A stretch of 64,000 bases of DNA from Halorarum salinum (GTDB lineage: Archaea > Halobacteriota > Halobacteria > Halobacteriales > Haloferacaceae). Of the stretch, positions 4,067-64,000 are shown piece by piece. Within the stretch, counting starts at the first letter, position 1, and every line of letters begins with the position of its first letter. Below the pieces are notes generated by a model that did no database searches, had not been told where the DNA came from, and worked only from the letters and a program-made list of their open reading frames with translations. A program made the translations under genes and the position numbers. The stretch covers positions 372,001 to 436,000 of the forward strand of contig NZ_CP058579.1 of the NCBI RefSeq assembly GCF_013402875.1, written 5' to 3'.

Positions 4067-4493
4067 GTCGGGTGGCGATGCTTCGCGGTTCGAGTCGTCG
4101 TGAGGACCCTCCGTTTCGAGGTTAGTCCGGTCGTCGTGGGGGAGTTCCCGAAAGCCCCCGCGGGGGCGGGGACGTTCACGAGGCGCAGAGCGTCTCGTGA
4201 GCTCGCGAGAGCAAAGCTCTCGTGAACGGCGCGGACCGCCAAGCACCACAGCGCGACCGAAGGGAGCGCGAGGGGCGCGGCGGCCGCACCGACCCGAGCC
4301 CCGCGGGGGCTATCGAGAACGAGGCCACGGCGCACGAATCAATACAGGAGCCGACAGCGGTGGGGGCTTTCGGGAACTGTGCTGCGATGACCGAACCAGC
4401 CACGAAGCAGACAGCGGCGGGAGCTTTCACGGTCATCGCCACGGTTCCCCACGCGCCCACCGAAACACCACCCGCCAAAAGTGGATAGCGGAA
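4067..4493. repeat. Dispersed repeat element, copy A
   Basis: Non-coding stretch between two convergent genes. On the right, three tandem units have their GGGGGCT-like anchors at 4305, 4362 and 4419, an exact 57-bp period, pointing right. On the left, at least one unit points left (AGCCCCC at 4153-4159), with a truncated one outside it. Between them lie two hairpins with 3-nt loops (4176-4200 and 4203-4225) and a core at 4240-4292 that matches copies C and D. The units therefore face outward from the core. Short peptides can be read through all frames because 57 is divisible by 3, but nothing suggests they are made. Confidence 0.8.
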
Positions 4494-5243
4494 TCAGACC
4501 AGTTCGATCTCGTGCCCGTCCTGGTCCTTCGTGAACGCGTACCGGAAGTCGCACGACTCGGGATCGCGGTAGTCCTCCGACTCGCGCTCGAGCACCGCCT
4601 CCCAGTCCTCCTCCAGGTCGTCGACGCGGACCGCGAGGTGACCCCAGGCGTCGCCCATCTCGTAGCTCCGCCCGTCGTAGTTGTACGTGAGTTCGACCGA
4701 CATCGCCTCCTCGCCGGCGTCCTCGGGCTTCATGAAGTAGTTGGCGAACGTGTCGGCCTCCCAGCGACCGGCGTGCTCGTACTCGAACGTGCGCAGCCAG
4801 TAGCCGAGCGCCTCGGCGGCGTCCTCGACGCGCATCATCGTGTGGTCGAGCGACCAGCGGGCGCCGTGGTCGCGCTGGACGATCTCGATCTCGTGGCCGT
4901 CGGGGTCCTTCACGAACGCGTAGCGGCCGCCGCAGGAGTCGGGGTCGCGGTAGTCCTCGACGCCCGCGTCCATCAGCTCCTCGTAGGCGTCGTACACGTC
5001 GTCGACGCGGACGGCGATGTGGCCCCACGCGTCGCCCATGTCGTACGTGCGGTCGTCGTGGTTGTACGTGAGTTCGAGCGTCGCGGAGTCCTCGCCCGCG
5101 TCGGCGGGCCCGAGGTGGACGTTCGTGAACGTGTCCGCGTCCCACCGGCTCTTCTCCTCGTAGCCGAAGTGACCGGTGTAGAACTCCATCGCCTCGTCGA
5201 GGTCCTCGACGCGCATCATGACGTGGTCGAGCGTGAATGCCAT
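4494..5243 (-). CDS. Tandem VOC-domain (glyoxalase/dioxygenase-fold) protein
   Basis: A 249-residue protein made of two vicinal-oxygen-chelate modules in tandem (residues about 1-122 and 125-249). Each begins LDHxMMRVED and ends with a GHEIE motif. Both halves keep a potential metal set: His in LDH, Glu in the VELTYN or LELTYN strand, His in DAWGHxAVRVDD, and Glu in GHEIE. Whether it is a lactoylglutathione-lyase type enzyme, a ring-cleaving dioxygenase or a resistance protein cannot be told from sequence; glyoxalase-like is the usual database wording. The start at 5243 gives MAFTLDHVMM, right at the domain edge. It stands alone, with its 3' end facing repeat element A. Confidence 0.85.
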   Translation of the reverse strand: MAFTLDHVMMRVEDLDEAMEFYTGHFGYEEKSRWDADTFTNVHLGPADAGEDSATLELTYNHDDRTYDMGDAWGHIAVRVDDVYDAYEELMDAGVEDYRDPDSCGGRYAFVKDPDGHEIEIVQRDHGARWSLDHTMMRVEDAAEALGYWLRTFEYEHAGRWEADTFANYFMKPEDAGEEAMSVELTYNYDGRSYEMGDAWGHLAVRVDDLEEDWEAVLERESEDYRDPESCDFRYAFTKDQDGHEIELV

Positions 5244-5419
5244 GTTCGATGGGTGGGCCGCGCCGTCGAAAAGGGTACCGACGTCGAACGGTTTGGCGGG
5301 GGCCGCCGGGACGGATCGTCCGTCGCCGGGTCGGTCGCCGCCGGTCGGCCAGGTCACGCCGCCGGCCGGCCACCGCGCCGTCGCGCGACCCTCCGCCGCC
5401 CCAGTTGGTCCGCCGGCGT

Positions 5420-22732: not shown

Positions 22733-23454
22733 TTCGGATCGTTTTGCGAGACGGCTGGTGTCGGACAAATTACGGCGATTTTCTCGCTGGGTCTCGATCC
22801 CGGAGCCCATCCGGATGCCGGGGAGTAGTTCCCGAAAGTCCCCGCAATTCTCGGCTAGGGATCGAGTCCAAGTCCCTTCAGAACGTCTGGAAAGCCCCCG
22901 GCGTTCTCGGCTCCCGCGGCCCGCTCTGCGCTCCTCGTCACTCGGCCTTCGGCCTCGTTCCTGCGGTGCTTGAGGGACCGGGATTCGCCGAGAACGCCGG
23001 CCCCTTTCAGTCCCACCCACACCGCACCACAGCCTCCCCAGCCGATTCGTTCCCTTCGGTCGCTCATCCCTCGCGCGCATCCGGCTGGCACGGAGGCCAG
23101 CCGGCACGCGCCACCGCACCGACTGTACCATGGTTCGAGACGCCGAAGGCGTCTGGTCAGCAGTGAGAACTCTTCGAGTTCTCACCGCATCACGAGGGAC
23201 GCTTTGCGTCCCTCGAACGACAGCGGCCGCACCGACTCGAGCCCCGCGGGGGCTTTCGAGAACTACGACACGACGAAGCCACCCGCATCGAAACTGGCAA
23301 CCACGGGGGCTGTCTGGAACTGTTCGACGACGACCGAACCAACCACGACAAAGCCGGCCGATTGCCACAGTCGACAGGACGAGGCAGTCGTCACGGCAAA
23401 ATCCCGCCGGCGAAGAGAAGGACCCGTCAGAACTCGAAGCTCACCGAATCGGAC
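22733..23454. repeat. Dispersed repeat element, copy B (composite)
   Basis: 722 nt between convergent genes, the largest copy in the window. From left: two left-pointing units (AGTCCCC at 22837 and AGCCCCC at 22893, 56 bp apart); a diverged core (about 22909-22972, ending GGTGCTTG); the CCCCTTTCAG/TCCCACCC module (23001-23018), followed by an AGCC-rich stretch; a 9-bp hairpin (23081-23104); three perfect 3-nt-loop hairpins (23138-23215); a short inverted core piece with GCGGCCGC (from 23223); and two right-pointing units with GGGGGCT at 23248 and 23305, exactly 57 bp apart. It looks like two partial elements back to back. No convincing gene. Confidence 0.8.
23138..23215. repeat. Three consecutive perfect hairpins with 3-nt loops
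   Basis: Stem 1: AGACGCC, loop GAA (23138-23154). Stem 2: GTGAGAACTC, loop TTC (23163-23185). Stem 3: CGAGGGACGC, loop TTT (23193-23215). Each is fully paired (7, 10 and 10 bp), yet the three stems share no sequence. Copies A and D carry analogous hairpins with other stems. Confidence 0.8.
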
Positions 23455-31770: not shown

Positions 31771-32205
31771 GGACGCACTAATTGCCGGAACGGTCATTAA
31801 GGATTCGGGTGGTCCGGAGTTCTCGGTGATCGGTTTCCGGATGGGTACTCGGGTCGTAGGTGGTCGGGCAGACTCCCCTCTGGTAGTGTCGGAGTGCAGA
31901 CCGCGAAACCCCCGCAGCTATCGCTTTCCGGTTCAGTTAGTGCGTCGCCGAACACGTCCAGAAAGCCCCCGCGGCTGTCGGCGACGGCGCGACTGGCAAG
32001 CACCGCAGCGCCCGAACAGGGTGAGGGCGCGAGGAGCGCAGCGGCCGCACCGACCCGAGACCTCCGCGGGGGCTCTCGAGGCAGCCGTCACCACGAAAGC
32101 CGAATCAAAAACAGCCGTCACCCGGATGGCCAAACCAACCCATCAACCGACGACGAAGAAGCAACGACACACAAAAGCCCCTCACCCCCCAACGCCCACC
32201 CAGAA
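31771..32205. repeat. Dispersed repeat element, copy C, in a divergent promoter region
   Basis: 435 nt between the divergent mutase and DUF5788 genes. Left-pointing units have AACCCCC at 31907 and AGCCCCC at 31964, exactly 57 bp apart. The core occupies 31997-32053 and matches copy D over its full 57 nt with few changes. A right-pointing unit has GGGGGCT at 32068, followed by a degenerate second unit. Within the core, GCGCCC and GGGCGC can pair. Unlike A and B, this copy lies where two promoters must also fit: the mutase box near 31797 and the region around 32170. Confidence 0.8.
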
Positions 32206-44767: not shown

Positions 44768-45254
44768 TTCGTTTCGTTCGGATCGCCCGCCCCTGCGACG
44801 CTCGGTTCGTTGATCGGTTCGGGCATCGTAGCGCAGACGCCGAAAGCCCCCGCGACTGTCGGCTCGGTGCGGCCGCTGTGCTCCTCGCGCCCTCACTGCG
44901 TTCGGACGCTGTGGTGCTTGACGGTCCGCGCCAGCGCCGACGGCCGCGGCCCCTTTCAGTCCCACCCGCCGCACCCACAGCCACCCCAGCCGATCGCGAT
45001 GCTCGCTCGCTGCGCGTCTCGTCCCTCGCGCGTCGTTGGCCGCGCACTACCCGGGACCTTCGGTCCCGTGCGGTCACCCTCGCTCGCGTGACCGAGGCGC
45101 GGCCGCCGCGCGCCAACCGGCGGGTTCGTCGAGCGCACCTCGGCGACGGCTTCGGAACTCTCCTCGAACGGCCCAGGCCCGAATCGCGGAGCGGGGAGAA
45201 ACACGAACGGCCGAGGGGGCCGAAAGTTAACACCCAGGCCGCCGACGTGGGGAC
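44768..45254. repeat. Dispersed repeat element, copy D
   Basis: 487 nt between co-directional genes. Two left-pointing units have anchors at 44788 and 44845, exactly 57 bp apart. The core spans 44864-44920 (57 nt, TCGGTGCGGCCGC to GGTGCTTG). The CCCCTTTCAG/TCCCACCC module is at 44950-44967 and is followed by an AGCCACCCCAGCCGATCGCG stretch, also in B and E. Then come two hairpins: CGGGACC-TTC-GGTCCCG (45052-45068) and CGGTCAC/GTGACCG (45071-45094). No right-hand units were found. The last 50 nt hold the promoter of the SDR gene (AAAGTTAACACC about 27 nt before its ATG). Confidence 0.8.
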
Positions 45255-63924: not shown

Positions 63925-64000
63925 TCCGTCGTCGGCACGCGGACCCCCGTTGCTTGCCCACTGAAGTCCACCAGCCTCCCCAACCGATCGCGCTCCTTGC
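63925..64000. repeat. Dispersed repeat element, copy E (cut by the window end)
   Basis: The last 75 nt match the second module of copies B and D: TTGCTTGCCC, then AAGTCCACC, then AGCCTCCCCAACCGATCGCG, ending in the window edge. Units and core are not visible; they could lie outside the window. Confidence 0.6.

Follow-up and report, generated by a model that had tools for sequence, protein, structure and literature searches.

The window analysed here is a stretch of 64,000 nucleotides (positions 372001-436000 of a 4.02-Mb contig) from the 4.26-Mb genome of Halorarum salinum. Related sequences lie at five places in it (elements A to E), and their parts are a foot with the motif GGGGGCTTTC, the S motif (GTGGGACTGAAAGGGGC), a hairpin cassette and a G module. 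Element A begins with a left foot that points left (GGGGGCTTTCGGGAAC, 4144-4159, minus strand), followed by a hairpin cassette between two inverted feet (4160-4304, plus strand), which contains two perfect tip hairpins, an AAGCACC..GGGGCGC core and GGCCGCACCGACCCGAGCC, and no S. The right foot at 4305 is followed at 57-bp spacing by iteron feet at 4362 and 4419 (4305-4428, plus strand). Positions 4494-5357 on the minus strand hold a gene of the glyoxalase family that contains a tandem duplication, its two copies 73-81% identical in DNA and offset by about 381 bp.

Element B starts on the minus strand with a left arm: an iteron foot at 22828 and a proximal foot at 22884, 56 bp apart and pointing left (22828-22899), and a hairpin cassette with the stem CGGCGTTCTCGGC/GCCGAGAACGCCG (22900-22999). 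These are followed on the same strand by an exact S (23000-23016) and by a G module (TCGGCTGGGGAGG, GCGCGAGGGATGAG) with the left hairpin domain (23017-23130). The right arm, on the plus strand, begins with three chained perfect hairpins, each with a 3-nt loop, and GCGGCCGCACCGACTCGAGCC (23131-23247), followed by a foot at 23248 and an iteron foot at 23305, 57 bp apart (23248-23320). In element C, a proximal foot (approximately 31955-31970) and a one-mismatch iteron foot at 31907 lie 57 bp apart and point left (31907-31970, minus strand); a single hairpin cassette without S (CAAGCACCGCAG..GAGGAGCGCAGCGGCCGCACCGACCCGAG, 31971-32067, plus strand) is held between this arm and the inverted right foot GGGGGCTCTCGAGGCA (32068-32083, plus strand). 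Element D lies entirely on the minus strand: a foot pointing left (GGGGGCTTTCGGCGTC, 44836-44851) with a weak iteron partner at 44788, a hairpin cassette (44852-44948), an exact S (44949-44965), and a G module with the left hairpin domain (44966-45125). Element E (63938-64000, minus strand) consists of a decayed S and G module and runs about 90 bp beyond the end of the window.

The sequence-only reading had listed these five places as recurring non-coding sequence, with GGGGGCT anchors spaced 57 bp apart in A to D (56 bp in the left part of B). All five are real and non-coding; E has neither foot, iteron nor anchor. Exact anchor pairs were found at 4305/4362 and 23248/23305 on the plus strand (two at spacing 57 in the window, against a mean of 0.005 in locally shuffled windows), and the remaining partners are inexact: 4419 (GGGAGCT), 31907 (GGGGGTT) and 22837 (GGGGACT, at spacing 56 as claimed) each have one mismatch, and the partner at 44788 in the D pair (44788/44845) is a weak match.

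Alignment of loci showed that the repeat unit is modular. From 5' to 3' a unit comprises the left hairpin domain and G module (pattern ..GCGCGAGGGACGAG [hairpin] GAGGCTGGGGAGG..), S, the hairpin cassette, the right foot and further feet. S is the 5' half of this larger element and contains its own foot (GTGGGACTSAAAGGGGC); the right foot (GGGGCTTTS) is the 3' half. The cassette, with its freely varying stem, has a core that recurs between copies, AAGCACC..GGAGCGC, and encloses a variable hairpin. In some elements the cassette is turned round relative to its feet, and in others the feet adjoin directly with no cassette. The outward symmetry has two sources: a head-to-head arrangement of two units, or a single cassette flanked by two inverted feet, the latter being the S-less type of elements A and C. 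Arrays of feet contain 1-7 units.

Several variants of this plan were observed. Inside some cassettes (loci L338, L346 and L359, and the C site of genome G104, which is locus L304, 14501-15600 of its reverse complement) two to four perfect hairpins, unrelated in sequence and each with a 3-nt loop, follow one another and look as if whole hairpins had been added as modules. A second type of tail, on the 5' side, consists of short repeats of approximately 27-28 bp (CGGTGACACNNNCCACCGGAAACGC) upstream of S in genus g28 and its relatives (L147-L266, L094-L110). Compact outward pairs, with two S head to head only 45-50 bp or so apart, were seen in several genera (L112, L114, L115; genomes G147, G027, G072, G080). 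In the Halorarum genome, a subfamily (L463-L474) has GTGGGAATGGAAGGGGC and GCGGGACTGAAAGGGGCCGG as its forms of S, separated by some 200-214 bp, in copies about 80% identical.

The period and the polarity were followed through the whole genome. A search for the foot (GGGGGCTTTCGRGAAC, up to 2 mismatches) returned 82 matches, compared with 6 for the reversed control. Among 60 loci read in this genome, all 19 pairs of opposite-strand neighbouring feet were in the -/+ arrangement, and 14 of 22 pairs of same-strand neighbours had a spacing of 57 bp. The 14 pairs of S less than 700 bp apart were all -/+ too. With a looser motif and unconstrained spacing the value was 57 bp in 20 of 37, most of the others being 54, 56 or 58. 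In g2, a Halorubrum-like genus and probably Halorubrum itself, 40 of 50 neighbouring feet had this spacing; in other genera it was found once in 28. The loss of fixed period or of outward polarity, either of which had been named as fatal to the initial claim, was thus not observed, but 57 bp is limited to this family of genera and was rejected as a haloarchaea-wide constant. The sequence following the foot in 57-spaced pairs had a mean identity of 66% in g2 and 43% in the Halorarum genome, often 20-50% and as low as 21%: the length between feet is held while the sequence drifts. At locus L335 the iterons seemed to decay with distance from the hairpin, as after a leader, but over 51 arrays this was not general.

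S (up to 2 mismatches) was found in 113 of 195 Halobacteriales genomes, many named haloarchaea included, in 0-138 copies per genome (control, 0-1); among 204 genomes of the phylum from outside the haloarchaea, a stricter pattern matched in one. In the Halorarum genome 88 of 89 arms are intergenic, with the next gene start or end usually about 40-210 bp from the foot, and there is little orientation preference (next gene co-directional with the arm in 50 cases, opposed in 35); gene context was taken from a home-made gene caller that missed some membrane proteins. S showed no clear orientation trend relative to the replication strand per 0.5 Mb. A search of plasmids gave partial matches in two Halobaculum plasmids only, and among viral contigs S was present in two, with no full element recognised. 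No Rfam family matched the window above its gathering threshold, which sets aside a known RNA family, and a tRNA scan found none. An intrinsic terminator, one of the first functions proposed, is not supported: the aligned arms of the elements read have no U-run after the hairpin, and gene orientation is near random. The motif strings were found in no haloarchaeal paper of the open-access collection searched, subscription papers being outside that search, and the repeat family has apparently not been described before.

The feet enclose a stem of about 13 bp, immediately next to them, that varies in sequence from copy to copy while its halves remain complementary. When the 3' halves were re-dealt within each of three groups, Watson-Crick pairing fell from 0.80 to 0.59 (own genus), from 0.89 to 0.67 (g2) and from 0.78 to 0.48 (other genera); the observed values lay beyond all 2000 permutations, although permutation and binomial values overstate independence because the copies are related. 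Pairing also joins the two feet, on either side of a nearly constant GGG x GGG internal loop, and here too changes are compensated: in place of GAAAG/CTTTC, 47 of 47 g2 units have CAAAG/CTTTG, and an inner A-T pair was changed to G-C nine times. Each of the three facing G's of the loop was kept in 253-256 of 257 units. Halves of the G-module hairpin formed 5.6 of 7 pairs when matched and 4.1 when swapped. A G-quadruplex from four G-runs in one arm was considered and rejected, since other genera do not conserve the fourth of these runs (GGGAAC).

Mismatches are asymmetric. G.T exceeded A.C by 92 to 29 (97 to 27 in a second count; the p-value of 8e-9 is a guide only, because the copies are related), and this excess indicates selection on the strand running from S to the foot and therefore that one strand folds, as RNA or, less likely, as single-stranded DNA (ssDNA). 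An RNA fold of element D recovered the foot pairing, the GGG x GGG loop, the stem and the GCACC/GGAGC core, with the minimum free energy structure equal to the centroid, and the opposite strand was less stable. Compared with shuffled sequences, the RNA fold of D was modestly better and the fold with DNA parameters no better; this is as expected for GC-rich sequence and is not decisive. The proposal of a structured single-strand element is thus well supported by the covariation and the G.T/A.C asymmetry. The small perfect tip hairpins follow another rule: 103 of 133 have 3-nt loops, 101 of these 103 are closed as C-NNN-G, and the two strands are balanced, which suggests palindrome formation at the DNA level for those parts and not RNA selection.

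The history of gain and loss was read from comparisons between species, not strains. Genes of the window are 75-93% identical to those of genome G195, in which the A and C sites are occupied with different hairpins (the A site there carries S), the B site is a 189-bp spacer without modules and the D site is a remnant; the C site is occupied in G104 too. At one site in genus g28 the flanks and feet are kept in four species, with other cassette types in two of them, and a fifth species is empty. Three sites were compared in g2: the first carries the element, in a single orientation, in ten species and is reduced to 17-38 bp in six, at the second about ten species match over the element, and the third is short in most species. 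At this third site in G178 a 9-bp direct repeat with one mismatch (GGAGTGAGC/GGAGTGGGC) flanks the element, whose ends are not definable elsewhere. The L335 and L336 sites are empty in several species. At the L335 site of G202 (L407) a gene stands in place of the element, its product resembling a DHH-type phosphoesterase by eye.

No recent burst was detected in the Halorarum genome: there are no near-identical copies, and the best element-wide match between different loci is about 85%. Together with the site comparisons, this indicates an old family that persists at its sites, turns over its insides and is slowly gained or lost. The suggestion of a miniature mobile element gains partial support from presence and absence at orthologous sites and from one candidate target-site duplication, but near-identical copies are absent and no mobilising enzyme came to light. 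Remnants of a known insertion sequence were looked for in the Y1 class: the transposase (PF01797) is absent from G000, G104, G195, G041, G133, G008 and G033 and present in G074, G187, G110 and G178. As it is missing from five of the seven tested genomes with at least 70 copies, Y1 was rejected as the mobiliser. No transposase reading frame was noticed between the arms in the loci read.

Probably, if by no wide measure, the iterons form the 3' tails of a haloarchaea-wide repeat family, modular in build and interspersed between genes, whose folded strand would be RNA and whose spread would be slow. We take the family to be a BOX/REP-like structured repeat, most likely transcribed. The folded strand would be made from the element's own promoter or by read-through. 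In g2, and there only, a TATA-like box lies near the left boundary in 24 of 41 elements, against 0 of 41 further upstream; a promoter starting transcription exactly at the left boundary is not supported, as the TATA-box distances do not fit. The constant feet and the internal loop may be recognised by a host protein, the spaced feet of the tail offering repeated copies of its recognition site. The family may spread slowly as a non-autonomous element, after which elements would persist at their sites while inner hairpins are exchanged. This explanation is weakened by the balanced C-NNN-G triloops of the tips, which look DNA-made rather than RNA-selected, and the inverted cassettes, the feet without cassettes and the absence of near-identical copies count against it, as do the margins of the modelled folds over shuffled sequence and the restriction and position of the TATA-like boxes. 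A further proposal is held only tentatively: a class of structured RNA or ssDNA hairpins with up to about 100 sites per genome, in which the GGG x GGG joint would be quadruplex-like or protein-bound in the potassium-rich cytoplasm, the 57-nt-spaced copies of the 3' half would act as alternative partners or docking sites, and cassettes would be exchanged between fixed feet by a putative enzyme.

The main rival, which we consider rather unlikely, is a folded ssDNA site of recombination or transposition, similar to attC or REP: one strand would be extruded during replication or transfer, and a putative recombinase would cut at the feet and exchange cassettes. Such a site would fit the exchange of cassettes between fixed feet at one orthologous site, the empty feet and inverted cassettes, and the C-G-closed 3-nt tip loops, a type unusually stable in DNA; the G.T/A.C asymmetry fits ssDNA too. 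Against it stand the lack of Y1 transposase in five of the seven high-copy genomes tested, the absence of any recombinase gene linked to the elements and the DNA-parameter fold of D. Integron attC sites, one of the closest parallels, are described as imperfect hairpins with constant feet and stems variable in sequence and length, recognised on one strand (PMC2727003 among others). At the haloarchaeal repeat, in contrast, neither linked gene cassettes nor an integrase was noticed. The foot consensus is unlike the attC boxes. REP and BIME sequences, as usually defined, share with it a conserved foot with a variable stem, frequent inverted pairs and dozens to hundreds of intergenic copies; the haloarchaeal repeat, however, is much larger, with both feet conserved and iterons in its tail, and most of the high-copy genomes tested lack the Y1 (HUH) host transposase on which mobility of the REP/RAYT or IS200 type depends.

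An array of protein-binding sites on double-stranded DNA, serving chromosome organisation, insulation or regulation, is improbable. The feet would be operators in 57-bp phase and the hairpins secondary, in keeping with the spacing held over drifting sequence, a TATA-like tract in 38 of 47 Halorubrum-like (g2) iterons, the weak gene-orientation preference and the long-lived sites; free variation of stems with kept complementarity and the G.T/A.C asymmetry would be left without explanation, and the spacing is rarely seen in other genera. The protein-binding iterons first suggested thus keep their constant spacing as an argument, but not the value 57 throughout the haloarchaea. Least probable is a decay of MITE-like insertion-sequence copies that now lack a function, their perfect hairpins made by templated palindrome repair during replication: the empty B, L335 and L336 sites, the D remnant in G195 and the direct repeat in G178 speak for this, but such repair predicts equal G.T and A.C, even diverged copies keep the feet and the GGG x GGG loop almost unchanged, sites persist across species, and no parent insertion sequence was seen (the systematic search covered Y1 only). 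Haloarchaeal MITEs and palindrome-associated transposable elements are small, non-coding, intergenic and patchy in copy number; the repeat differs in being GC-rich, with no regular target-site duplication established and no parent element found.

The modular, RNA-like repeat favoured here would be closest in kind to the BOX elements of Streptococcus pneumoniae, whose boxB modules stand in tandem. These are interspersed, intergenic and modular, with variable numbers of tandem modules, an RNA-like fold, slow turnover and no known enzyme of their own (PMC3049150). The haloarchaeal repeat is likewise intergenic and modular, with a tandem module of variable number and a single-strand fold, but its tandem units lie outside the hairpin as a 3' tail at fixed 57-bp spacing, its stems vary freely, it has the GGG x GGG loop, its hosts are haloarchaea and its sequence is unrelated. 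Compensatory changes on one strand are shared with structured non-coding RNAs. CRISPR arrays resemble the tails in their regular short period. The motif end GGGACTGAAA resembles some CRISPR repeat ends. A CRISPR array was nevertheless rejected: what separates the feet is related sequence that drifts, not unique spacers between identical repeats, and the repeat is a two-foot hairpin in dozens of dispersed copies.

More than half of the sampled haloarchaeal genomes thus carry a structured repeat, sometimes in over 100 copies each. The copies form a large natural covariation data set for a fold that is specific to one strand and has an unusual GGG x GGG loop, in cells rich in potassium. They also allow the question to be put how interspersed repeats arise and are maintained in archaea that lack a REP-type transposase. 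If transcribed, the family would rank among the group's most abundant families of RNA-like elements.
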